A stretch of 64,000 nucleotides of DNA from Selaginella tamariscina (lineage: Eukaryota > Streptophyta > Lycopodiopsida > Selaginellales > Selaginellaceae): NCBI GenBank assembly GCA_003024785.1, contig PUQB01000522.1, forward strand, positions 113,908 through 177,907. The letters run 5' to 3'. The translations under genes and the position numbers were made by a program. The notes under the pieces are model-generated. The model searched no databases and was not told where the DNA came from. It saw only the letters and a list, made by a program, of their open reading frames with translations. Shown here in pieces: positions 7,792-63,831 of the stretch (its first letter is position 1; the number at the start of each line of letters is the position of its first letter).

Positions 7792-9699
7792 CTAAGAAAG
7801 ATGGTGAACTTTAGGTACGCCATACACCGGGGTGGATACTCCCTCCATGCGTGCCTTGAGCTGCAGTGCCAAATACAAGGAATAGTGCCTTGCCTGGTGG
7901 AGGTTTCCTCCATGGAACCACAATGCGTCTTGCCTCGTCGGCTTCCACATATTCCTCAGCTCCCCCTCCCAGGGCCCAGGATCCTTCCTAGTTTCTGATC
8001 CCAGTCCCCAGCACTTCCCGACTGTATCTGCCACTTCCTGGGAAATAAGCTTTGCAGCCCACTCATTCATAGATCCATACCCTGTAGCCAGAACCACTAA
8101 GTCGGCCTCGAGTTCCGTACCATCGGTCAGCACGACCGTGCGCTCCGTGAGATGATCTATAGTGACACCGCTCTTCAGCTTTATCTCTCCGTCGATCAAC
8201 AGCTGAGACGCACCCACGTCTATGTAGTATCCAGATCCACGTCGTAGGTACTTCACAAACAGGCCGCTGTCATCGTCCCAAAGTCGAGCATGAACCCGCA
8301 TTTCCTGAGATTGTCATAAAAATCTGCGTCACTGGCCTTCATAACTTCGACCTTGGGACGAGCCACCTCAGGGAGCAGCTTGTACGGGACGGAAGCAAAC
8401 AACATGTCGGCTTTGTCAGTTGTCAGCCCAGACTCGACTGCAGCCTCTGAGTAAGTCTCATGTAGGAACAGTGTATGGAGTGTCTCAGACTTGACAACCA
8501 GTGTGGAGGACCTCTGTACCATGGTGATCTCAGTGGCTTCGTTCTCCCAGAGATCAGCTGCGATATCATGAGCCGAGTTGTTGGACCCCAAAATGACTGC
8601 CTTCTTGCCCTTGTATCCTCGCCGCCGGTGTGCTTGCTTGAGTGGTGCAAGTTACCCAGAAACCTGTCCGCTCCAGGGATTTTGGGAATGTTGGGGAATC
8701 CAGACATACCAGTTGCAAGGACCAGCTGCTTGGGTGTAAGGACCACCTCCTCCGACTTGTTGCGTACAACTTTCACTGTCCACTCCTTGGTGTCTGCTGA
8801 AAAGCCAGCTGAGACGCACTCGGTAGAGCTCCAGTAGTTGATCTCCATGACCTTGGTGTACATCTCAAGCCAGTCCCCAATCTTGTCCTTGGGAGCGAAG
8901 ATCGGCCAAGTCTCTGGGAAGGGAAGGTAAGGAAGGTGGTCATACCAGACAGGATCGTGCAGGCACAGCGACTTGTAGCGGTTTCTCCAAGAGTCGCCAG
9001 GACGCTCGTTCTTCTCTACTACGATGCAAGGTACATCAAGATGTCGAAGTCTTGCCGCTAGCGCGATTGCAGCCTACAAGGAAATGCATGGATCATCTCA
9101 CAAGACGTACGTGTTTTAAACAAATACCTGACCGCCTCCAACGATAAGGCAATACGGCTGCACGGTGTATCCAAGGTTGGCCTCTTCTGCACGTCGCATG
9201 TCCTGCCATGTGGTACGGTGTCGCACGGCACCGTGCGTCACACCCTTGGGACGCAACGGCCCTTCTTCTCGGGAAATGCCTTAAGACCCGACATGGACGT
9301 CAGAAGCGTACGGCATACAGCACGTTGCACGTCCAGCCGAACGTGTCCCGTGCAGAGTGCAACTTCTGTCTCGAACGTGATCCACGACTCTACGGTGGTG
9401 CCGTCGGCGGTACAAGTTGCAGCGCCGTCACGCTTCCAGTGGACAGCGGACGTGTCAGCGAGCGTGGACTCGAGCATGGAAAGGATTTGATGGCGACCCT
9501 CGAGCGTGATAATGTTCCACGTGAACGAGATAAGATCGCGCCAGAAACCGGATTCATCAAAGAGATTGGCTGCCGCAGTCGCATCCCGATTGACGAGAGC
9601 CGAATTGAATTTACACAGCCATTCGTCAACTTGTGTGTTGGGATCTACCGTTGTTCCATTTTCCACCGTCCCATTTTCAGTACCATTCTCCACTGCCAT
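7792..9699 (-). pseudogene. NTF2-like/flavin monooxygenase fusion, one intron, three frameshifts
   Basis: A YUCCA-like flavin-dependent monooxygenase that would use FAD and NADPH to oxygenate a small substrate, not identifiable here. The ATG is at 9699. Residues about 25-150 form an NTF2/SnoaL-like domain. Exon 1 ends at 9128 after CLIVGGGQ; a 54-nt GT-AG intron (9074-9127) follows; exon 2 begins AAIALAARL, completing the FAD-binding GxGxxA fold. Then come the FMO signature region FLGNLHHSSKH, the NADPH-binding GSNNSAHD, and VVLATGY near the C-terminus. Three apparent one-base losses (near 9262, 8623 and 8281) split it into blocks that are otherwise fully open and well conserved. It is either a very young pseudogene or an intact gene with sequence errors. 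The identity is firm; its activity is not. Confidence 0.85.
9074..9127 (-). other. Intron of the flavin monooxygenase gene
   Basis: A 54-nt intron. The donor GTATTTG (minus strand, from 9127) and acceptor TTGTAG (ending 9074) interrupt the Rossmann glycine motif exactly between Q and A. Removing it joins CLIVGGGQ to AAIALAARL in frame. Confidence 0.85.
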
Positions 9700-18365: not shown

Positions 18366-19266
18366 TGTCATAGTTTTTACTATGACTCGACCCTTTACTT
18401 TGGGGTTTGACTGTTGTTACCTACTGGATTATGTGACGAACCCTAGATGTAGAAGAAATAAGTGCACTTGGGTATATAGTGATGGTCCGGCGGGTGTCAT
18501 TAGGTATTTGTAAGAAATTCTAGGTGAAGTTAGCACTTCCATTTAGAGAACCCTCCCCCGTTTTGACGTTCTTGGTTAGGGTTCTTCACAAAATATAGCT
18601 TGTTAAAATAAGGGTTAGGGACACGGGGTTAGGTTTAGGGTTAGGTTAGGACAATCATTTTCTCTAAGGGCTGCCACTTACTCACTTAGGTAAATGGGGG
18701 GGGGGGGGGGGGGGGTCTGTCACATAAATAAGGTAGAGTATACGTAGTGAGGCTTCCTGGGTTCAAAAGAGAGCTCGTTAACCTCCTATCGGTGCAAGCT
18801 AAGCTTGTGTCGTCAAGGTGCAACCCTTTATTGTACTGCCCAAACTTCCACACAACATGGGTACAACCCACCCTAGGGTTAGACTATCCTTATCGTTGGC
18901 AGGATCTTGCCTTTGAGATAAAGGCACATCACTTCCAAGGAGTTAGTCAGATTCCTTGGTCCGAAAACCTGTCCGCAAGCTCAAAGGCATTGCCCGAGTT
19001 CACGTTCCGCAAAACTAGTGGTTGAGGCCTTGCTTCGGCCACCTCAACCACGCCAAGCTAGGAACGACACCTGAAGCTCGGCTAGTCAGTGTATCCTGAT
19101 TCACAAGGTGAGTCTCGTTCGTGGACTTAGTCAGCTAGGGGTTTGAGCTAGGGCTTGGGTTCCTAATATGGGTTATTTTACCAGATTTCATGGGGTTTCC
19201 AGAGAGGGGATTCCAGGGTTGGCACCTGGCAAGCCGCCTTTGTGGCACCAGGTAAAAACTCTGACA
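18366..19266 (+). repeat. 5' LTR of family 1 element
   Basis: TGTCATAG start and CTCTGACA end. It contains a 20-G run (18696-18715) just before cacataaataaggtagagt, a TATA-like region. It lacks about 50 bp of telomere-like sequence present in the 3' LTR at about 24790-24860. Confidence 0.92.
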
Positions 19267-19599
19267 ATTAGTATCAGAGCAAGTTCTCTGCGGTCAGTAG
19301 GACTGCCTTAAATCGTAGGGTGTTTCAGTGTTTAGATGACTCTAAATTCTTGATATACTCTATTGCTTTTGGTTGTATTCTGTGCAGACAGTTTGATCAT
19401 GTGAGTTGTCAAACTTCGGAGAACATTGCTCAGTGAGTTGGTGTGAGATTCTAGGTATGTTCGAAAGTCTATATGCTGGTTTAAACTGATGTGTGTGGGT
19501 GTACAACCTGTGCAAGCAACTAGAGCCTGAGGCAGAGAGGGCTGTTGCAGAGGCTCAAAATGAAGAGATGGATGAGGCTGATCCAGGTCGACCCCCTAG

Positions 19600-22696: not shown

Positions 22697-24150
22697 GTGG
22701 CAAAGAGGAAACAAGTTCATCAGTTACGAAGAGATGGTAATATTCCAGCAGGAATAGAAAGTCGAATGGATGCACTCAAACAGGCGCATTTTGCAGTACG
22801 AGATGGAGTTCTTTATTATAAAGAAAAGAGACTCTATGTTCCAGAAGGGACATGGAGGGAGAGGCTGTTAAGAGAGCATCACACGTTCCTTTGGCAGGAC
22901 ATGGTGGAAGGCAAGACGTTGGCTTTGTTGAAACAGGGATTCTATTGGCCGGGTATGATAGACGATGTTGCCAAGTATGTCAAGACATGCCCCACATGTC
23001 AACAAGTAAAGAGCCGATCGCAAAAACGAGCTGGGAAGTTGCAGTGTATACCGATTCCAGAGCGGCCATTTCAAAGTGTTACTTTGGACTTTATCATGGG
23101 ATTGCCAAAATCTTGTGGTTTTAACGCGCTCATGGTGGTAGTCGATCGTTTTTCAAAGGTTGCTCATTTCATTCCAACTGTAGAGACAGTGAATGCAATT
23201 CAAGCAGCGAAGTTGTTCTTCCACGAAGTCATAAGAGTGCGCGGACTACCGGAAACATGATCTCAGATCGAGATCCTCGGTTTACGGGAAGTTTTGGGGA
23301 ACGTTGTTTAAGCAATTTGGTACGATGCTGAAGTTTAGTACGGCTTACCATCCGCAAACGATGGTAATGGAGAGTGAACCGACAAGTCGAGGACTATCTC
23401 AGATGCTATGTTCAAGGTGATCAACTTGATTGGGCTGAACACTTAGATATGGCTGAGATATGTTACAATAACTCGATGCACACTGCAATCGGATGTAGCC
23501 CGATGGAAGTGTTAACTGGGAATAAGGGTGGTATTCCTCAGAGTATGGTGTTACCGAAAGACGATAGCAATCGAGTTCCATCTGTAGCAGAGTTCACGGG
23601 ACAATTGTATCGAACATGGGAAGCTGCTCGTCAAGCGATGGCTGCAGCACAGGAAAGGTATCGTCAGCAGTACGATAAGCATCGGCGGGATGTAGAGTAT
23701 CAGGTTGGGGATATGGTATTGTTGAGTACCAAAAACCTGAAGGTTCCAATGACTCTTTCGAGGAAGTTTCTATCGCACTACATAGGTCCATACAAGGTGG
23801 TGAAGCAAGTAGGGAAAGTGGCTTATGAGTTGGATCTTCCTCCAGAGTTGGGAACAATACACAATGTGTTTCATGTCAATTTGCTCGAGCCATTCCACAA
23901 AGATGAGAAACATCCACAAAGATATGAAAACTTACGTCCGCCCCCTGAGCTGGTTCATGAAGGTACGGAGTACGAAGTCGAATCCATATTGGGCAAAAGG
24001 AAGGTTTATGGACCGCGAAAACGTAAGTTTGAGTATCTCGTCAAATGGAAAGGCTATCCGGCGTGCGAATCGACATGGGAACCATTGGAGAATCTACAAA
24101 ACGCGATGGAGTTGGTGAATGAGTTTGAGGCAAGGTCTCAAACTAATTAA
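22697..24150 (+). mobile_element. Family 1 integrase with C-terminal chromodomain
   Basis: The zinc-binding part has CPTCQQVKSRS near 22990; the catalytic core starts with SVTLDFIMGLPKSCGFNALM (first Asp) and VVVDRFSKVAHFIPT. The frame breaks at about 23260, shortly after GLPET, and resumes at about 23374. The rest of the core and the GPY-like region (FLSHYIGPYKVVKQVGKVAY) are open. The chromodomain is at the end (EYEVESILGKRK, FEYLVKWKGYPACESTWEP), stop at 24148-24150. Chromodomains of this group are thought to steer integration to chromatin with particular histone marks. Confidence 0.88.
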
Positions 24151-24528: not shown

Positions 24529-25486
24529 TGTCATAGTTTTTACTATGACTCGACCCTTTACTTTGGGGTTTGACTGTTGTTACCTACTGGATTATGTGAC
24601 GAACCCTAGATGTAGAAGAAACAGGCCCGCATAGTGCACTTGGGTATCTAGTGATGGTCCGGCCGGGTGTCGTTAGGTATTTGCAAGAAACTCTAGGCGA
24701 AGCTAGCACTTCCATTTAGAGAACCCTCCCCCGTTTTGACGTTCCAGGTTAGGGTTCTTCAAATTATAGCTTGTCAAAATAAGGGTTAGGGACACCCCTA
24801 GGGTTGACCTAACCCCACGTCCTAAACCCCCCCCTAGGGGTTAGGTTTAGGATTAGGTTAGGACAACCATTTTCTCTAAGGGCTGGCATTTCCGTGCCAG
24901 CCCACTTACTCACTTAGGTAAACGGGGGGGGGGGGGGTCCGTCACATAAATAAGGTAGAGTATATGTAGTGAGGCTTCCTGGGTTCAAAAGAGAGCTCGT
25001 TAACCTCCTACCGGTGCAAGCTAAGCTTGTGTCGTCAAGGTGCAACCCTCTGTTGTGCCGCCCAAACTTCCACACGACAGGGGTACAACCCACCCTAGGG
25101 TTAGACTATCCTTATCGTTGGCAGGATCTTGCCTTTGAGATAGGGGCACGTCACTTCCAAGGAGTTAGTCAGATTCCTTGGTCCGAAAACCTGCAAGCTC
25201 AAAGGCATTGCCCGAGTTCAGTTCCGCAAAACTAGTGGTTGAGGCCTTGCTTCGGCCGCCTCAACCACGCCAAGCTAGGAACGACACCTGAAGTTCAGCT
25301 AGTCAGTGTATCCTGATTCACAAGGTGAGTCTCGTTTCGTGGACTTAGTCAGCTAGGGGTTTGAGTTCCTAGGGCTTGGGTTCCTAATATGGGTTATTTT
25401 ACCAGATTCCGTGGGGTTTCTAGAGAGGGATTCCATGGTTGGCACCTGATAAGCCGCCTTTGTGGCACCAGGTAAAAACTCTGACA
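24529..25486 (+). repeat. 3' LTR of family 1 element
   Basis: 958 bp, the same ends as the 5' LTR. Contains a 14-G run (24924-24937) and repeated TTAGGG/CCCTAA-like words at 24785-24860. Confidence 0.92.
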
Positions 25487-38421: not shown

Positions 38422-38821
38422 TGTCACAATCGGATACATGATACGAGTTACAGGATATGCATATAAGATATACTTACAGGATATGCCTGTAGGATATTCC
38501 TACAAGATATGCCTATAGGATATACCTACAGATATGCATGTAGGATATTCCTACAGGATATACCTATAGGATATTCCTATAGGATATACTACAGGATATG
38601 CCTAAAGGATAAGGGTCATTATTTTTAGCTCATGACCATATTAGACTCATGACCAGATTAGCTTGGAGTTGTGAGTATAAAAGCTCCGACCTAATTGTTG
38701 TACAATCAGTTACTATTAACACCAGTCATTTTACGATCATTCTTGTCTTGTTCCTTGCTCTTGCCTTGTTCTTGAGTCAAGCCTTCTTATTGTTATCTTG
38801 CTCTTAGGTCGTGGCTTGACA
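38422..38821 (+). repeat. 5' LTR, family 2 outer copy
   Basis: 400 bp, TGTCAC to TTGACA. It contains about ten tandem copies of an ~14-bp word (ggatatncctayaggatat). TATA box tataaaag is at 38676-38683, with attgttgtacaat and cagttactattaac downstream. Confidence 0.92.
38676..38720 (+). promoter_or_regulatory. LTR core promoter and predicted transcript start, family 2
   Basis: TATAAAAG followed 25-35 nt later by caatcagttactattaac. The whole block gtataaaagctccgacctaa is conserved in every family 2 LTR here, as expected for a start site defining the R region. The transcript start itself is inferred from TATA spacing. Confidence 0.7.
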
Positions 38822-38924
38822 GTTTGATAGTAACTGCTTTCATAGCTTTTCGATTTTCAACTACTTTTTTCCTTGATTCTTCTCCTTCGTTTTTCTCCTT
38901 TTTTTTTTTTTTCTTTCATATATC

Positions 38925-41353: not shown

Positions 41354-41966
41354 TGTCACGACCCGATACAGAATACAGAATTCCGGATACAGGACATGGG
41401 TTGCAGGACTTTCCTACAGGATTCCGGATACAGGATATGGGTTGCAGGATTTTCCTACAGGATATTCCTACCAGGATTCCGGACACAGGATTCGGTTGCA
41501 GGATATTCCTACAGGATATGCCACAGGATATGCCTAGAGGATAAGGGACATGTGGACTCATCTTAGCCTCTGCATGCATGCAATCACTTTTGCATGCATG
41601 CAACCACTTTTGCATGCATGCCTAGATTAGCTCTTGGAGTTGTGAGCATAAAAGCTCCGACCTAATTGTTGTACAATCAGTTACTATCAACACCAGTCTT
41701 ACTACGATCAATTTCGTCTTGTCTTGTTCTGTCTTGTTTCCTTCCTGTTCCTGTCTCGCTCCTGTTCCTGTCCTGCCCTGGATCCTTCCTGCTCCGGATC
41801 CTGTCCTGTTCCTGTCTGCTCCCGGATCCTATCCTGATCCTGTCTTGCTCTAGATCCGTCCTGTTCCTATTTCCAGTTCCTGTCCTGCTCTCGGTCCTGT
41901 TCCTGAGTCAAGCCTTCCTGTCCTTGGAATCCTGTTCCTTCCTGGTTCCTGGATCGTGGCTTGACA
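41354..41966 (+). repeat. 5' LTR, inner family 2 copy
   Basis: 613 bp. U3 has ggattccggatacaggayat repeats and three tgcatgcatgcaaycacttt units (41570-41625). Its TATA-like ataaaag is at 41648-41654. R begins near cagttactatcaa (41678-41690). U5 is rich in TCCTGT repeats. The last base of the 3' LTR copy appears lost. Confidence 0.93.
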
Positions 41967-41982
41967 GTTTGATAGTAACTGC
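41967..41982 (+). promoter_or_regulatory. Self-complementary primer binding site, family 2
   Basis: gtttgatagtaactgc begins directly after the LTR. Its TTGATAGTAACTG (41969-41981) is the exact reverse complement of CAGTTACTATCAA at 41678-41690, 30 nt after the TATA box. It does not resemble the usual tRNA-iMet site seen in family 1. The pairing suggests the transcript's own 5' end primes reverse transcription, as known for Tf1 and relatives. Confidence 0.75.
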
Positions 41983-42058
41983 TTCATAGTTCTCCGTTTT
42001 CCAGCTACCTTTTTCTTGATTCCTTTCCTTCATTTTCCTCCTTTTTCTTTCCTAGATC

Positions 42059-43027
42059 ATGGCTGATTTTGAGCGTTTTCAACACGAGCACCAAATGCTA
42101 CTTCATGAGCTGGCCACTTTGCGCCAAGTGGTCACCGACCTGCAAGGTTCCACCACTGCGGCACATGCAGCTGCTGATGCATCCTCCAAGGCTGCTGCAG
42201 GCTCTCTCCCAGGCATCGGTGGTTCCCTCTTCATCAAACTTTTCTTCGGAGCCGAAGGTTAGCATGCCAGAGAAGTTCAGTGGTAATCGTGCCGATTTCC
42301 AAGGTTTCCTGAATCAGATCCGGCTCTTGATCCGTATGCAACCACGGCGCTCGACTGATGCTCAAAAGGTGGGTCTTTTGGCATCCTTACTAAGTGGATC
42401 TCCACGGGCTTGGGTTGCCCCCTTGCTGGAGCGTGACGATCCATTGATGGAAGACTTTGAAGGTTTCGTGGCTGCCTTTGAAGCCTGTTTTGGAGATCCT
42501 GATAAGTACCGTTCTGCATGCACGAAGTTACGGAAGCTCACTCAAGGATCCCGACCAGCTTCCGTCTATGCATCCGAATTTCAGCAACTTTGCACGAACA
42601 TTCCATGGGACGAGACTGCATTGATCGAACACTTCCGTTTTGGGTTGAGGGACGACGTGAAGGACCTTCTCCTTACGTTACCGGATGCCCAAACATTAGC
42701 GGAGATCATGCAACAAGCTGTTCGTTGCGACAACCGTTTGTTCGAGCGTCGTCAGGAAAGATCCCGTCAACAGTTCCTGCAAACCAATCCTGCAGCTGTG
42801 GTACATGTTCCTGCACCACCTTCTGGAGTAGTTCCTATGGAGGTTGAGAAATCCAAGCGTGGCTCTCTTTCCGCTGCGAGAAGCAACGTCGTCGCAGTGA
42901 GAACCTGTGCTTGTATTGTGGTGGAGCAGGACACAAGGTGGCAGATTGTCCTATTAAAGCCAGGAACTTCAAGACGCGTGAAGTGAAGCTGAAGTTCAGT
43001 CGGAAAACTCCAATGTCCACTTCGTCT
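42059..43027 (+). CDS. Family 2 inner gag (frameshifted)
   Basis: Capsid/nucleocapsid protein that forms the particle. It starts [21 protein letters not shown] two-base loss near 42193 moves the frame. [17 protein letters not shown], a long retrotrans-gag region ([39 protein letters not shown]) and a basic segment follow. A second one-base loss near 42873 precedes the zinc knuckle [12 protein letters not shown]. Gag ends at the conserved TAG (43025-43027) shared by all three copies; pol continues in the -1 frame. Apart from the two indels the reading is clean. Confidence 0.85.
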
Positions 43028-46000
43028 AGGAGCCGCGAAGTTGGACGTAGGTGCAGGCTCCATTGGTGCTGCTCATACCATCCCGTCACTTAAGTTTCCT
43101 GTACACATTCATCTTAATAATCGAGAGCTCATGGAGTTTGCCTTGTTAGACACTGGTGCAAATGCATGCTTCATGGATGACACGTTTGCAACTCAACATG
43201 GCATTTCGGTGGTGAAGTTGAAGCGTGCAGTTCCTGTAGAGGTGGCCGATGGGCGTCTAATTGCTTCTGGTGCAGTTACCCATGCTACCGAACCTCTCTC
43301 CTGCAGGTATGGCACATTCAACTGTTCAATTTCCTTCAACTTGATCAAGACTCGGTCGACTCCCATCATTTTGGGCATGCCATGGTTCGTTGTTGCAAAT
43401 CCGCAGATCGACTGGAGGTCTAGGACGCTCACGTTTTCCTCTCCAACTGCTAGGATCAATCCTGTACCTTCCTGCGTGCAGGATACATCCTTAGTATCTG
43501 AGGCAGTACAAGCTACAGGATTGACCGTGCCTGTTCCTGTACCAGTGTTGAAGACTCCTCCTCGACAGGATTCACCTCATATCAGTTCCTCAGCATCGCA
43601 GGCTCTCTCCACTCCTGTAAGTTTGCGGTGTCCTGTACAGGGTTCTTCCAATCCTGTATCAGTGTCGAAGGTTCCTCCTCAACAGGATCCACCTCCTGTT
43701 GATTCGTCAGCACATTCGCAGGCTTCTTCCACTCTTGCGCAACCACGGACTCCTGTACAGGATTCTTCCAATCCTGTACACTCATCACCCACACAGGTTT
43801 TTTCCAATCCTGCTTCTTTCTGTTACCCTGCTTCTGTTCCATCCCCCAAGATCCTTCCTCTTTTTCAGTCACAGCTCCCTCCTTCTCCTCTCCGAGTTCT
43901 TACCACTACCATGCATGAACTCGCCACTGATCCTGCTCCCTTCCACCTTTTTGCCTTTCAAGTAACTCCTACGTCCTCTTCTACCTTTCCTGTATCCGAC
44001 TCCCCTGTTTTTTCTCCTTCTCCTTCTCCTTCTCCTCCTTCTTCCCTACCATCCAAGTACCACGACTTTAAGGACGTTTTTGACAAGCACAAGGCTGCAG
44101 TTCTTCCTGTTCACAGGTCCTACGACTGTCCTATTGATCTTGCGGAAGGAAAGACTCCACCATTCGGACCGATTTATGCATTGTCACCCACAGAGTTGGA
44201 GGTTCTTCGTCAGTACATCGAGGACAACTTGGCATCCGGCTTCATTCGTCACTCAAAGTCCCCTGCAGGAGCTCCTATCTTCTTTGTCAAGAAGAAGGAT
44301 GGGAGTTTACGTTTGGTTGTGGACTACAGGGGTTTGAATCAAGTCACCATTCGGAATCGGTACCCGTTGCCATTGATCCCGGAACTTCTCGATCGGCTGC
44401 GAGGAGCAAAGGTGTTCACGAAGATCGACTTACGAGGAGCCTACAACCTTGTACGGATTCGTCCCGGCGATGAGTGGAAGACTGCCTTTCGTACAAGGTA
44501 TGGACATTTTGAGTACACGGTAATGCCTTTCGGCCTTACCAATGCCCCAGCTGTGTTCCAACACATGGTGAACGACATTTTCCGTGACTTCTTGGACCAG
44601 TTTGTGGTGATCTACCTCGACGACATCTTGATTTTCTCCAAGGACCAGGCGGCACATGACAAGCATGTACGACTAGTTTTAGAGCGGCTTCGCGAGCATG
44701 GCCTGTACGCGAAGTTGGAGAAGTGTTTTTTCGATGGATTCGGTGGAGTTCTTGGGCTACATCGTCTCTCCTGCTGGCGTTTCCATGGACATGCACAAGG
44801 TGAAGACCATCGTGGAGTGGGAGAGGCCCAAGTCGGTACGAGATGTACAATGTTTCCTTGGCTTTGCAAACTTCTACAGGCGGTTCATACAGGACTTCTC
44901 CAAGCGTGTACTTCCACTCACAGAACTCACCAAGCGCACAGGACTTTTCTCTTGGTCCGACAAGGCGGAACACGCGTTCACAACACTCAAGGACGTTTTC
45001 ACGACAGCTCCGATTTTAGCACATCCTGACCCTTCTCATCCTTTCTTCATTGAAGCAGATGCCTCGGATTTTGCAGTAGGATCCGTGCTATCGCAAGTTG
45101 GAGAGGACAAGTTGCTTCATCCTGTAGCTTTTCACTCTCGTAGTTCCTGTCGGCGGAGATCAACTACGAGATTCATGACAAGGAACTCAAGGCCATTGTG
45201 GATTCGTTTGGAGTGGCGGCATTTCCTGGAAGGTGCTGCACATCCTGTACAAGTTCTTACGGATCACAAGAACCTGGAGTACTTTCAAACGGCTCGGGTC
45301 CTCAGTCGGCGACAGGCTAGGTGGCAGAGTTCCTATCACGTTTTGACTTCGTCATCGTCTACAGGCCCGGCTTTCGGAATGGCAAGGCGGACGCATTGTC
45401 TAGGCGCTCTTACCTTGCACCAAGCCCGGGCGATCCTGCATTTGACGGTCAAAGGCAAGTGTTGTTGGGTCCTGATCGTTTCCGGCTTGCGGCACTGCAG
45501 GTTCATCAGGCTCCAGCAAATTCAACACTCCTACAGGACGTCCGTTCGCAGTTGGCTACAGACGACTTGGCAAAGAATGTGTTCTCACACATTCATCCTG
45601 ACGTTGCAAGTTCCTCTTCCTCCAGTTCCCGTCCAGACTACAACCTGTTCACCATACAGGATGGACTCCTGTACCGGGAAGGTCTCCTGTACGTTCCTGT
45701 TGGTATTTCCAGGACTCGTGTGGTACAGGATTGTCATGATACCCCGGCTACAGGACATTTTGGTGTGGCCAAGACAGTGGAGTTGGTGACTCGCAACTAT
45801 TGGTGGCCTGGGTTGCGAGGTTTTGTGGAGAGGTTTGTACGGAGTTGTGACACTTGTAGCAGGTCGAAGATGCCTCATCATGCACCCTCTGGTCTTCTTC
45901 GTCCTCTTCCTGTTCCGTCTGCTCCTTGGAGATCCATTTCTATGGATTTCCTCACAGATCTTCCTCCTTCTCGTGGATTTGATGCAGTTCTTGTGGTGGT

Positions 46001-47015
46001 TGACCGTTTCACCAAGCAGGCTCATTTCCTACCCTGCAACAAGACAGCTACAGGTCAGACAACTGCCGAGTTGGTGATCCGCGAGGTGTTCCGACATCAT
46101 GGTCTTCCTGAGAGCATTGTTTCCGATCGAGGTCCACAATTCATGTCCAAGTTTTGGCGAGAGCTTCTTCGGAGTCTACAGGTCAAAGCGGATCTTTCTT
46201 CAGGATATCACCCACAAACCGATGGGCAGTCCGAACGCACAATTCAGACCTTAGAACAGTATCTTCGTTGCTTCATCAGTTACCAGCAGGACAACTGGTT
46301 GGACCTCCTTCCAATGGCGGAGTTTGCCTACAACAACTCCATCCACGCATCTACAGGACAGACACCTTTCTTTGCTCTTACAGGCCACCATCCACGTTTT
46401 GACTTTGCTCCTCCCGCTTCTCCTTCTTCCGCTCCTGCAGTACAGGATCGTCTTCAGCATCTTCGGCAGGTACAGGATGATCTCCAGGTTCATCTTCAAC
46501 AGGCACAGGAACGATACAAGCATCATGCTGATGCTCACCGTCAGCCGGCACCTGCATACAAGATTGGTGATCTCGTGTGGCTTCTTCGTCGACACATTCG
46601 CACCAACAGGCCTTCTTCTAAGTTGGATTTTCAACGATTGGGCCCTTATAGGATCGTGGCGGAGGTAAATCCTGTAGCTTTCCGACTCGAGTTACCATCC
46701 ACGGTGAAACTTCATCCTGTGTTTCACACCTCTTTGTTGGAGCCGTATCATCCTTCTTCTCTTCCCGGTCGTGTTTCTTCTCCTCCCCCTCCTGTGGTCA
46801 TTGACACGGAACCTGAGTACGAAGTTGCAGCCATCCTTGACTCTCGTCTTCATCGTCACCAACTCCAATACTTGGTGGATTGGAAAGGGTACCTGCCTAC
46901 TGATCGCACTTGGGAACCTGCATCCAACTTACTCCATGCTTCTTCCAAGGTTGCTGCCTTCCATCGGCATTATCCTGCTAAACCAGGTCCCAAGACTCGT
47001 GGAACTCGTCTTTAG
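43015..47015 (+). CDS. Family 2 inner pol (protease, RT, RNase H, integrase, chromodomain; frameshifted)
   Basis: The first open block (to about 44735) has the protease active site [13 protein letters not shown] and [18 protein letters not shown] ~250-residue S/P-rich linker with repeated [12 protein letters not shown] units follows, then reverse transcriptase with [24 protein letters not shown] and the intact catalytic [13 protein letters not shown]. Next come RT thumb and RNase H ([32 protein letters not shown]), broken by small losses near 44735, 45150, 45208 and 45320. The last block is a 564-codon open frame: H2C2-type integrase finger ([12 protein letters not shown]), core ([35 protein letters not shown]), then chromodomain [12 protein letters not shown] with [19 protein letters not shown], stop at 47013-47015. 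Confidence 0.9.
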
Positions 47016-47026
47016 GGAGGAGGTGC

Positions 47027-47618
47027 TGTCACGACCCGATACAGAATACAGGATTCCGGATACAGGACATGGGTTGCAGGACTTTCCTACAGGATTCCGG
47101 ATACAGGATATGGGTTGCAGGATTTTCCTACAGGATATTCCTACCAGGATTCCGGACACAGGATTCGGTTGCAGGATATTCCTACAGGATATGCCACAGG
47201 ATATGCCTAGAGGATAAGGGACATGTGGACTCATCTTAGCCTCTGCATGCATGCAACCACTTTTGCATGCATGCCTAGATTAGCTCTTGGAGTTGTGAGC
47301 ATAAAAGCTCCGACCTAATTGTTGTACAATCAGTTACTATCAACACCAGTCTTACTACGATCAATTCGTCTTGTCTTGTTCTGTCTGTTTCCTGTCCTGT
47401 TCCTGTCTCGCTCCTGTTTCCTGTCCTGCCCTGGATCCTATCCTGCTCCGGGATCCTTCCTGTTCCTGTCTGCTCCCGGATCCTATCCTGATCCTGTCTT
47501 GCTTAGATCCGTCCTGTTCCTATTTCCAGTTCCTGTCCTGCTCTCGGTCCTGTTCCTGAGTCAGGCCTTCCTGTCCTTGGAATCCTGTTCCTTCCTGGTT
47601 CCTGGATCGTGGCTTGAC
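47027..47618 (+). repeat. 3' LTR, inner family 2 copy
   Basis: 592 bp, preceded by the polypurine tract ttagggaggaggtgc. It matches the 5' LTR closely but carries one fewer tgcatgcatgcaaccacttt unit. Its terminal A is missing at the TAATC junction. Confidence 0.92.
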
Positions 47619-50015: not shown

Positions 50016-50447
50016 TGTCACGACCGGATACAAGATACGAGTTACAGGATATGCCTATAGGATATACTTACAGGATATGCCTACAGGATATTCCTACAGG
50101 ATATGCTTATAGGATATACCTAAAGGATATGCCTGCAGGATATTTCTACAGGATATACCTACAGGATATTCCTATAGGATATGCCTATAGGATATACTAC
50201 AGGATATGCCTAAAGGATAAGGGTCACTATTTTTAGCTCATGACCATATTAGACTCATGACCAGATTAGCTTGGAGTTGTGAGTATAAAAGCTCCGACCT
50301 AATTGTTGTACAATTAGTTACTATTAACACCAGTCATTTTACGATCATTCTTGTCTTGTTCCTTGTTCTTGTCTTGTTCCTTGCTCTTGCCTTGTTCTTG
50401 AATCAAGCCTTCTTGTTGTTATCTTGCTCTTAGGTCGTGGCTTGACA
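50016..50447 (+). repeat. 3' LTR, family 2 outer copy
   Basis: 432 bp, longer than its 5' partner by extra ggatatnccta units (50045-50220). TATA box tataaaag at about 50284. Confidence 0.92.
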
Positions 50448-57608: not shown

Positions 57609-58023
57609 TGTCACGACCCGATACATGATACAGGATACATGATATGAGTTATAGGATATGCCTATAGGATATACCTACAGGATATGCCTATAGGATATAC
57701 CTACAGGATATGCCTATAGGATATACTACAGGATATGCCTAGAGGATAAGGGTCACTATTTTTAACTCATGACCAGATTATAACTCATGACCAGAATAGC
57801 TTGGAGTTGTGAGTATAAAAGCTCCGACCTAATTGTTGTACAATCAGTTATTATCAACACCAGTCTTTCTATGATCAATCTTATTTTGTCTTGCTCCTTG
57901 CCTTCTGCTCTTGTCTTGTTCCTGATTCTAGTTCCTGTCCTGCTCCCTTATCTTGCTTCTGAGTCAAGCTTCCTTGTTCTCGGAATCCTACTCACTTCCT
58001 TGTTCCTAGATCGTGGCTTGACA
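57609..58023 (+). repeat. 5' LTR, third family 2 copy
   Basis: 415 bp, TGTCACGACCC to GGCTTGACA, with ggatatgcctataggatata repeats and the conserved tataaaag at about 57815. Confidence 0.9.
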
Positions 58024-61000
58024 GTTTGATAGTAACTACTTTCATAGCTTTTCGATTTCTAATTACTTTTTTTTCCTTGATTCTTCTCCTTCATTTTCCT
58101 CCTTTTTTCTTTTATAGATCATGGCTAATTTTGAGCAATTTCAACACGAGCACCAAATATTGCTTCATGAGCTAGCCACTTTGCGCCAAGTGGTCACAGA
58201 TCTACAAGGTTCCACCAACACGGCGCATGCAGCTACTGATGCATCCTCCAAGGCTGCTGCGCAGGCTCTCTCTCAAGCATCCGTGGTTTCCTCTCCATCA
58301 AACACTTCTTCGGAGCCGAAGATCAGCATGCCGGAAAAGTTCAATGGCAATCGTGTCGATTTCTAAGGGTTCCTAAATCAGATCAGGCTTTGATCCGCAT
58401 GCAACCACACCACTACTCGACTGATGCACAAAAGGTTGGCCTTTTGGCATCCCTACTAGTTGGATCTCCATGGGCTTGAGTTGCCCCTTTGCTGGAGCGT
58501 GACGACCATTAATGGAAGACTTTGAAGATTTTGTGGCTGCCTTTGAAGCTTGTTTTGAAGATCCCGATAAGTACCGTTCCGCATGCACGAAGTTACGAAA
58601 GCTCACACAAGGATCTCGACCAGCTTCCGTTTATGCATCCGAATTTCAGCAACTTTGCACGAAACATTCCATGGGACGAGACTGCATTGATTGAACACTT
58701 CCGTTTTGGGTTGAGGGATGACGTGAAGGACTTCTCCTTATGTTATCGGATGCCCAAACATTAGCGAAGATCATGTAACAAGCCGTTCGCTGCAACAACC
58801 GCTTGTTCGAGCGTCGTCAGGAAAAATCCTGTCAGCAATTCTGCAAACCAATCCTGCAACTGTGGTCATACTCCTGTGACACCTTCTAGAGTAGTTCCTA
58901 TGGAGGTTGAGAAATACAAGCGTGGCTCACTTTCCACTACTGAGAAGCAACGTCACCGCAGTGAGAATCTATGTTGTATTATGGTGAAGCAGGACACAAG
59001 GCGGCGGAATGTCCTATTAAAGCCAAGAAGTTCAAAACGTGTGAAGTTGAAGCTGAAGTTCAGTTGAAAAACTTCAATGTTCACTTTGTCTAGGAGCCAC
59101 GAAGTTGGACGTAGGTGCAGGCTCCATTGGTGCTGCTCATACCATTCCATCACTCAAGTTTCCTGTACACATTCATCTCAATAATCGAGAGCTTAAGGAG
59201 TTTGCCCTGTTAGACACTGGTGCAAATGCATGCTTCATGGATGACACTTTGCAACTCAACATGGCATTCCGGTGGTGAAGTTGAAGCGTGTGTTCCTGTA
59301 GAGGTGGTCGATGGTCGTCTGATTGCTTCTGGCGCAGTTACCCATGATACCAAACCTCTCTTTTGCAGTCATGGCACAATTCAGTTGTTCGATTTCCTTC
59401 AACTTGATCAAGACTCAGTCAACTCCTATCATTTTGGGCATGCCATGGTTTGTTGTTACAAATCCTCAAATCGACTGGAGGTCTAGGACGCTCACGTTTT
59501 CCTCTCTGGCAACTAGGATCAATCCTGTACCTTCTTGTGTGTAGGATACATCCTTAGTGTCTGAGGCAGTACAAGCTACAGGATTGGCTGTGCCTATTCC
59601 TGTATCAGTGTTGAAGACTCCTCCTCAACAGGATTCACCTCATGTCAGTTCCTCAGCACATCCGCAGGCTCTCTCCACTCCTGTAAGTTCGCGGATTCCT
59701 GTATAGGGTTCTTCCAATCCTGTATCAGTGTTGAAGGTTCCTTCTCAACAGGATCCACCTCCTATTGGTTCGTTAGCACACTCACAGGCTCTCCTCACTC
59801 CTGTGCATCCACAGACTTTATACAGGATTCTTCCAATCCTGTACACTTGTCAACATCCACACATATTTCTCCCAATCTTGCCTCTTTTCATTACTCTTCT
59901 TCTGTTCCACCCCCAAGATCCTTCCTCTTTTTCAATCACAGCTCCCTCATTCTCCTCTCCGAGTTCTTACCACTACCATGCATGAACTTGCCACTGATCC
60001 TGCTCCTTTCATCTTTTTGCCTTTCAGGTAACTCCTACGTCCTCTTTTACCTTTCATGTATCTGACTCCCCTGTTTTTTAATCTCCTTCTCCTGTTCCTT
60101 CTTCTTCTCCTCCTTCCCTGCCATCCAAGTATCATTCCTTTCAGGACATTTTTGACAAGCACAAGGCTGCAGTTCTTCCTATTCATAGGTCCTACAACTG
60201 TCCTATCGATCTTATGGAAGGAAAGACTCCACCGTTCGGACCGATTTATGCATTGTCACCTACAGAATTGGAGGTTCTTCATCAGTACATCGAGGAAAAC
60301 TTGGCATCCGACTAGTTTACGTTTGGTTGTGGACTACAGAGGTTTGAATCAAGTCCATTCGGAACCAGTACCCGTTGCCATTGATCCCGGAACTTCTTGA
60401 TCGGCTGCAAGGAGCAAAGGTGTTCACGAAGATCGACTTACAAGGGCTTACAATCTTGTACAGATTCGTCCAAGTGATGAGTGGAAGACTGCCTTTCGTA
60501 CAAGGTATGGACACTTCGAGTACATAGTGATGTCTTTGGACTTACCAATGCCCCAGCCGTGTTCCAACACATGGTAAACACATCTTTCGTGACGTCTTGG
60601 ACCAGTTTGTGGTAATCTACCTCGATGACATTTTAATTTTCTCCAAGGACCAGGCGGCTCATGACAAGCATGTACGACTAGTCCTACAGAGGCTTCATGA
60701 GCATGACCTGTATGCAAAGTTGGAGAAGTGTTTCTTCGACAGGGATATGTGGAGTTCTTGGGCTACATCGTCTTCCTGCTGGGGTTTCCATGGACATGCA
60801 CAAGGTGAAGACTATCGTGGAGTGGGAGAGGCCCAAGTCTGTATGAGACGTACAATGTTTCCTTGGCTTTGCAAACTTCTACAGGCGTTTCATACAGGAC
60901 TTCTCCAAGCGTGTACTTCCACTCACGGAACTCGCCAAGCACACAGGATGTTCTCTTGGTCCGACAAGGCGAAACATGCATTCATAACACTCAAGGACGC

Positions 61001-62795: not shown

Positions 62796-63270
62796 TGTCA
62801 CGACCCGATACAGAATGCAAGATACAGGATACGGGTTACAGGATATCCTATAGGATATACCTATAGGTATTCCTATAGGATATACTATAGGATATACCTA
62901 CAGGATATACCTACCTACAGAATATGCCTGCAGGATATTTTTACAGGATATACCTACAGGATATGCCTATAGGATATACTACAGGATATGCCTAGAGGAT
63001 AAGGTCACTATTTTTAGCTCATGACCAGATTAGCTTGGAATTGTGAGTATAAAAGCCTCTGACCTAATGTGTTGTACAATTAGTTATTATCAACACCAGT
63101 CTTTTTACGATCAAATTATCTTGTCTTGTTCTTGCCTCCTGCTCTTGTCTTATTCCTGGTTCTTAGTTCCTGTCCTGCTCCTTGTTCTGCTCTTTGTCCT
63201 GCTTTCTGAGTCAAGCTTCCTTGTTCTCGGAATCCTGCTCACTTCCTTGTTCCTGGATCGTGGCTTGACA
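62796..63270 (+). repeat. Internal LTR, third family 2 copy
   Basis: 475 bp, preceded by the polypurine tract. It is followed not by flanking DNA but by gtcattgacggtg from the chromodomain region. Confidence 0.88.
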
Positions 63271-63429
63271 GTCATTGACGGTGGTGGATTGGAAAGGTTA
63301 TTTGCCTACCGATCGCACTTGAGAACCTGCATCCAACTTACTCCATGCTTCTTCCAAAATTGTTTTCATCGGCGTTATCCTGTTAAACCAAGTCCAAGAC
63401 TCGTGGAACTTGTCCTTAGGAGGAGGTGT
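63271..63429 (+). repeat. Duplicated chromodomain-end fragment
   Basis: Repeats the end of pol (VIDGG..., then a jump to [14 protein letters not shown] codons and the polypurine tract) with the segment corresponding to 62585-62645 deleted. It shows that a second element tail was joined to this copy. Confidence 0.75.
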
Positions 63430-63831
63430 TGTCACACCCGATACAGAATGCAGGATACAGGATACGGATTACAGGATATGCCTATAGAATAATACTACAG
63501 GATATGCCTATAGGATATACCTACAGAATATGCTTACAAGATATGCCTATAGGATATACTACAGATATGCCTATAGGATAAAGGTCACTATTTTTAGCTC
63601 ATGACCAAATTAGACTCATGACCAGATTAGCTTGGAGTTGTGAGTATAAAAGCTCTGACCTAATTGTTGTACAATCAGTTAATATCAGTCTTTTACGATC
63701 AATTGTCTTGTCCTGTCCCTTGCCTCCTGCTCTTGTCTATTTCCCTGTCCTGCTCCTTATCCTACTTCTGAATTAAGCTTCCTTTTCTTGGAATCATGCT
63801 CACTTTCTTATTCCTGGATCGTGGTTTAACA
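63430..63831 (+). repeat. Terminal LTR, third family 2 copy
   Basis: 402 bp, tgtcacacccgatac to gtggtttaaca, same promoter block (tataaaag at about 63645). Confidence 0.88.

Follow-up and report, generated by a model that had tools for sequence, protein, structure and literature searches.

The primer of the fission yeast retrotransposon Tf1 is about 11 nucleotides (nt) long. Self-priming has been described for both Tf1 and Tj1 in the accessible parts of PMC4600332 and PMC10085805, and the latter portrays the Tf1 structure as a "pretzel" of three duplexes formed by the primer, its binding site and their flanks. In plants, according to the available text of PMC6317226, the Tcn1 clade of chromoviruses, found in moss and club moss, groups with Tf1/Sushi, and the majority of its members are predicted to be self-priming while other plant chromoviruses are not; the same text predicts self-priming for the TAR lineage of Ty1/copia elements (Houba and Osr-1). 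Tcn1 elements of mosses and lycophytes are reported to carry group I chromodomains (PMC3350952, as far as its accessible text goes), whereas the accessible part of PMC9033089 states, to the contrary, that Chlamyvir and Tcn1 are represented only in algae and non-Viridiplantae. For SM-Tcn1 of Selaginella moellendorffii, the accessible portion of PMC2864245 reports that neither a tRNA site nor self-priming was found and describes a conserved thymine-rich stretch between the 5' LTR and gag. The PCR survey in that portion covered 26 ferns and horsetails and 10 lycophytes, and Tcn1-like clones were obtained from Selaginella only.

Here we describe a chromovirus family, family 2, in a 64-kb stretch of Selaginella tamariscina DNA (the window; all positions are counted from its first base, and the family 2 features and the family 1 primer site given below are on the plus strand). 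Family 2 is like Tf1/Tf2 and Tj1 of fission yeasts, as far as these are covered by the sources above, in being a chromodomain Ty3/gypsy element whose primer site is complementary to the predicted 5' end of its RNA. It also resembles Tf1 and Tj1 in that the primer helix is accompanied by a helix adjacent to the LTR and the site (PMC10085805 and PMC4600332, accessible parts). It differs from Tf1 in its predicted primer of 12 rather than about 11 nt and in its host, those of Tf1 being fungi, and two of the three published duplexes were found in it. With the Tcn1 clade it shares chromodomain elements in non-seed plants, and it is likely a member of that clade; family 2, like SM-Tcn1, has a T-rich leader, and SM-Tcn1 differs in that no self-priming was found in it in the available text of PMC2864245. 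The TAR copia elements and family 2 are both plant LTR elements with predicted self-priming, family 2 being Ty3/gypsy by its domains. Among the publication matches listed, in a search that covered few subscription journals, none had a title that concerned covariation in plant leaders or fern self-priming. We put the probability at roughly 0.9 that family 2 is a Tf1/sushi-type chromodomain Ty3/gypsy element in which the RNA itself, by its 5' end, serves as primer of the minus-strand DNA.

Family 2 copies and the pairing of the predicted primer and primer site

There are three copies of family 2 in the window, namely an outer copy, an inner copy nested in it and a third copy. The inner copy has a 5' LTR of 613 bp (41354-41966, TGTCA...TGACA) and a 3' LTR at 47027-47618 that matches it at 95.1%, with TAATC on both flanks of the insertion. 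The outer copy, host of the inner insertion, has its 5' LTR at 38422-38821 and its 3' LTR at 50016-50447 (88.4% identical), with ATATT on either side. The 5' LTR of the third copy is at 57609-58023 and its 3' LTRs are at 62796-63270 and 63430-63831; these two consecutive family 2 LTRs, with a coding-end-like piece in between, look like a recombined or nested double end (62796-63831). Short tandem units around TACAGGATATGCC, with a period of 13 and multiples of it, occupy U3 in all three copies (38449-38611, 41374-41543 and 57650-57748), and the number of units varies among copies. Elsewhere in the window, a 216-aa frame on the minus strand (8426-9073) resembles flavin-containing monooxygenases, with a best match of 71% identity over 71% of its length; the organism-named proteins among the 120 matches listed of 1158 are all bacterial, and the frame may stem from a bacterial gene acquired by the plant or be a plant gene of bacterial type.

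The coding content of family 2 is that of a Ty3/gypsy element with integrase and chromodomain, as expected of the Tf1/sushi group. Above the Pfam cut-off, and in separate open frames, we found Retrotrans_gag, RVT_1, RVP_2, Integrase_H2C2, rve, SH3_Tf2-1 and Chromo. In the inner copy, a gag-like open frame (41979-42986; Retrotrans_gag, DUF4939 and Ty3_capsid) is followed by a protease-like and reverse transcriptase frame (42993-45029), where two more protease models fall below the cut-off, and pol goes on in other frames. A start-like ATG at 42059 is in a different frame from 41979-42986, so that in the inner copy gag is not contained in a single open frame. The third frame (45321-47015) encodes the integrase, a Tf2-1-like SH3 domain and the chromodomain, and the residues with which it begins align with the last part of the RNase H region in relatives. 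The group I chromodomain signature is present in P0001 (alignment A1) as EYEV, W521 and Y524, positions that we take to be the aromatic cage. By analogy, the purine-rich AGGGAGGAGGTGC (47014-47026) before the 3' LTR would be the polypurine tract.

The original prediction held that CAGTTACTATCAA at 41678-41690 is perfectly complementary over 13 nt to a site two bases past the 5' LTR, and its coordinates are exact. CAGTTACTATCAA is the reverse complement of the putative primer-binding site TTGATAGTAACTG at 41969-41981, which is separated from the LTR end by a GT spacer (41967-41968), and two bases are likewise found at this place in all 10 leaders as laid out below. All 13 pairs are Watson-Crick, and none of 20,000 dinucleotide-preserving LTR shuffles reached 13 nt (best 12). 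The predicted self-primer (41679-41690), the first 12 nt of the predicted RNA, would pair with the first 12 nt of the site, and inclusion of C41678 extends the complement to 13 nt. The TATA-like box said to precede it is CATAAAA at 41647-41653, beginning 31 nt before C41678 and 32 nt before A41679, and reads TATAAAA in the outer and third copies. The same pair, with substitutions, had been claimed for these two copies as well, and this is borne out. In the outer copy, 38707-38719 (predicted self-primer 38708-38719) pairs with 38824-38836 through 12 Watson-Crick pairs and one G-U pair, the longest exact run being 10 nt (145 of 20,000 shuffles as long). In the third copy, 57845-57857 (predicted self-primer 57846-57857) pairs with 58026-58038 through 11 Watson-Crick pairs and one G-U pair, with a mismatch at the outermost base, 57845; its longest exact run of 6 nt, which 16,915 of 20,000 shuffles reach, has no significance by itself. 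The R sequence is found in the 3' LTRs too, and the primer site is found only after the three 5' LTRs in the window. The fold predicted for 41678-42060 likewise contains the primer helix, and 3 of 100 shuffles give a fold that is as good. Given the predicted start at or near A41679, the 5' end of the family 2 RNA would be complementary to the primer site, as in Tf1/sushi elements.

The host genome (300.7 Mb, 1391 contigs) has 26 matches to light-harvesting proteins, which indicates a photosynthetic eukaryote. A first-look scan of it located 3060 candidate places for the leader; the 40 best were scored and are 96-100% identical. The pair is perfect in 27 of 30 fetched near-identical copies and has one mismatch, at the outermost base, in the other three. 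Of the 507 cells in 39 older copies, 484 are paired, 465 of them as Watson-Crick and 19 as G-U pairs, while 19 are mismatched and 4 are gapped; pair 7 is weak, being broken in 8 copies. The proportion of variable cells, measured without one older copy identical to that of the window (L164), is 0.020 in the primer and 0.031 in the site, compared with 0.060-0.080 in U3, U5 and the post-site leader, and 457 of 20,000 random block pairs are equally conserved. Variation between the TATA box and the RNA start matches that of the primer site (0.030), and a low value therefore does not single out the pair; the CAATC preceding the start is more variable than its surroundings (0.095).

These copies also bear on where the transcript begins. 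In the 39 older copies, the outermost pair is C-G 21 times and U-G 11 times, is broken in 6 copies and has a gap in 1, and the pair next to it is A-U in all 39. A putative initiator, CAATC-A, lies at 41674-41679; its C-A step is shared at this point by the inner copy and the six relatives with a full complement described below, and CAATC itself by the inner copy and four of these relatives (L002, L006, L067 and L079). Because the outermost pair is variable, the next is constant and the C-A step is conserved, the RNA most likely starts at A41679 with a primer of 12 nt, and C41678 is probably outside the transcript.

Relatives with other primer letters and a predicted second helix

An integrase scan of genome contigs yielded 56 loci (L001-L056). 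These loci are from prokaryote-labelled assemblies or bins and have eukaryotic-type chromovirus integrases, and the contigs are evidently contamination; direct repeats of at least 80 bases, more than 1500 bases apart, were seen in 6 of the 56. The nearest relatives of family 2 are on contigs of one bin (G001) labelled "uncultured Trichormus", the genus name used for the Azolla cyanobiont. These contigs are probably fern DNA; a light-harvesting search of the bin gave three matches, all weak. Seven leaders were recognised in the bin, six of which have a full complement of 11-12 nt and the same layout, with the primer beginning 32-33 nt after the TATA box and the site 2 nt after the LTR end. Their primers are ACTCTTGATCAA in L001, AAGGCGAACAA in L002, L003, L006 and L067, and AAGGTGAACAA in L079. 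The seventh leader (L004) has 7 contiguous pairs only.

L001, L003 and L006 came from a free pairing scan with no condition on TATA box or position, the first 700-900 bases of L001, L003 and L004 being read alongside it and L006 afterwards. L002, L067 and L079 came from an anchored scan, run on both strands of the window and of 86 loci (L001-L086), in which a site had to follow CA plus two further bases and a primer had to follow a TATA-like word. L058 and L002 represent one contig, which entered the count a single time. The figure of six in seven should not be read as a rate, since leaders without complementarity are mostly missed by such a scan. The anchored scan also returned several pairs of 9-10 nt and three of 11 nt (L042, L043 and the window, on minus strands), AT-rich and not preceded by TGACA or TAACA; these pairs were left out. 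The stretches of L005 and L007 that were read showed no leader, and no relative was found among the viral contigs searched with alignment A1. Searching the host genome with the CAACACCAGT motif for further families gave 9 matches, compared with 13 for the reversed pattern.

The pairing is retained with quite different letters. The primer of the window differs from those of L001, L003 and L079 at 5, 6 and 7 of 11 pairs, respectively, and L079 differs from L003 by one compensated pair, so that between families 1 to 7 of 11 pairs differ. As both families in each comparison are fully paired, these differences could only be two-sided; what matters is the existence of fully paired families with other letters. 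The proposed check for compensating changes succeeds between families, and within family 2 the changes of the pair look like decay. In L001, the primer helix is present in the predicted fold of 206-420, with 3 of 200 shuffles as good. In L003 (64-94) and L006 (18-48), a copy of the primer site (GTTCGCCTTGG) stands after the TATA box and before the RNA start and together with the primer makes up a DNA palindrome; no such copy was noticed by eye in the window or L001.

Directly 3' of the primer is CACCAG (41691-41696), next to the putative cleavage site; CAC-AG is found in all 10 leaders and CACCAG in 8 of them. A second helix is predicted between the stretch that follows and the end of the LTR. 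Its 5' arm consists of GTC, a 3-nt loop and CTACGATC (41696-41709), and its 3' arm of GATCGTGG, a 3-nt loop and GAC (41952-41965), ending one base before the LTR end; the duplex in the inner copy is predicted at -15.6 kcal/mol. The R sequence after CACCA and the LTR end form the best duplex in 9 of the 10 leaders, and the own partner beats every other-family partner in just 5 of 10. In an ungapped alignment of the ten leaders, laid out to fit the structure, 96.4% of the cells of the primer helix and 84.4% of those of helix 2 are paired, and 7 of 11 and 5 of 9 pairs, respectively, are changed on both sides. The covariation score is 0.598, compared with 0.233 in shuffles (0 of 500 as high) and at most 0.135 when slid, and overall 91.0% of the cells pair, compared with 71.4% in shuffles (0 of 500). 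The count of 12 two-sided changes is reached by 33 of 500 shuffles, and the number of further pair types by 2 of 500; as the shuffles keep kinship and one primer is common to 4 of the 10 leaders, the independent events are fewer than the cells. A third helix in the 10 leaders is equalled by 9 to 167 of 200 shuffles, and the third duplex published for Tf1 was not found. These results suggest a structure of two covarying helices across families, which is well supported.

Family 1 and alternative explanations

The window also holds a second chromovirus, family 1, for which an ordinary tRNA-iMet-like site had been claimed. This holds, as TAGTATCAGAGC at 19269-19280 is one letter off TGGTATCAGAGC. 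Family 1 and other chromoviruses with a tRNA-iMet site (L025, L027, L038, L040, L042 and L043) are like family 2 in their related integrase-chromodomain but differ from it in the type of site and in standing on the opposite side of a branch in quick integrase trees. This branch separates self-primed from tRNA-iMet rows with a support of 97 (65 rows) and 99 (60 rows, five rows being removed: L048, L049, L050, L053 and L054). The trees contain five self-primed rows and 7 and 8 tRNA-iMet rows, including family 1 of the window; a primer-site label is missing for most rows (53 of 65 and 47 of 60), and some rows are near copies. Proteins from Absidia (a fungus) and Dendrobates (a frog), the only organisms named among the 120 matches listed (4 of 120 rows), group with the self-primed side. 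The relatives of family 1 are distant, and matches that span most of the query do not exceed 44% identity. Its LTR pair (18383-19266 and 24546-25486) is 87% identical, and for the final part of its integrase frame (23368-24147) the protein search gave no close relative.

Could the family 2 site bind a host tRNA instead? No TGG follows directly after its LTR, as would be expected of a tRNA-primed chromovirus, so pairing with the CCA end of a mature tRNA is impossible; as the best 3'-end match is also only 4 of 13 among 60 tRNAs of 9 types, we rejected priming by a tRNA 3' end. An internal or half-tRNA fragment, with the LTR match being incidental, has precedents in plants in the half tRNA-Met and half tRNA-Ile primers, known from copia lineages only in the accessible text of PMC6317226. 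Our comparison, of 60 of 62 matches listed, is of little reach here, since the 60 host tRNAs represent 9 anticodon types from which tRNA-Met is absent, and the canonical iMet site used as a positive control was itself unmatched. The best match to the family 2 site among them is 9 of 13, which shuffled sites equal in 162 of 300 cases. In addition, the site changes together with the RNA start across families, which a conserved tRNA would not allow, and we regard a half-tRNA primer as improbable.

Leader structures serving packaging, dimerisation or translation are common in retroelements, and a conserved covarying fold alone does not tell its role, so the two helices may be real while another primer is used. 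This is very improbable in our view: one arm is at the required place of a primer site, 2 nt after the LTR, the other is at the predicted RNA start, and TGG is lacking. Moreover, Tf1/sushi relatives are shown or predicted to self-prime in the accessible parts of PMC4600332, PMC10085805 and PMC6317226. The least credible explanation, which we rejected, is a chance complementarity inherited by the copies of one family. The copies in the host genome are of one origin, so their number is not independent evidence, and, as given above, shuffles match the outer copy at times and the third copy mostly; yet none does so for the inner copy, and families with other letters retain the pairing, a covariation that speaks decisively against chance unless the leaders of the relatives are artefacts of assembly. 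The Tf1-like self-priming of the original prediction is thus supported by the compensating changes between families, the contrast with family 1 and the quick trees.

A model of self-priming and its meaning

We propose the following course for priming by the RNA itself. The RNA would start at A41679, about 32 nt after the TATA box, and its first 12 nt would fold back on the primer-binding site two bases past the 5' LTR, with helix 2 linking the post-primer stretch to the end of U5 and holding the primer site in place. By analogy with Tf1, the RNA would be cut after ...UAUCAA and before CACCAG, with release predicted to be by RNase H, and the free 3' end would be extended into U5 as the minus strand. 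The strong-stop junction is then expected to be AGUUACUAUCAA joined to the complement of ...TTGACAGT. The two bases between the LTR and the site would be lost at integration. In tRNA-primed elements, the primer is copied into a new site during plus-strand synthesis. If plus-strand synthesis likewise copies the attached primer here, changes at the RNA start would be carried along into the new primer site, and the letters of the primer could be replaced without loss of pairing.

Family 2 is no new departure for plants, since predictions of self-priming already exist for their Tcn1 clade and TAR copia elements. The new part is the covariation between families, the mechanism being known or predicted for the group. 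The same pairing with quite different letters in relatives is unusually direct evidence for self-priming, and the covariation of two helices provides a supported structure with a predicted RNA start, primer length and cleavage site, in a genus where the earlier study of a Selaginella element could not find self-priming (PMC2864245, accessible part). With its 3060 first-look leader places, the best 40 of which were scored at 96-100% identity, the host genome is suited to the study of tRNA-independent reverse transcription.

Our judgement is evenly divided on a broader reading, in which self-primed chromoviruses are a diverse lineage of seedless plants (ferns, lycophytes and mosses) with the primer as a free cassette in a fixed frame. 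The frame would consist of the TATA box, about 32 nt, a CA start, a primer ending in AA, CACCAG, helix 2, TGACA, two bases and the primer site. Primer letters would be replaced wholesale between families, since every round of replication would carry the primer over into the following site. If this is true, the identity of the primer would be a heritable, self-renewing tag of the family, independent of host tRNAs.
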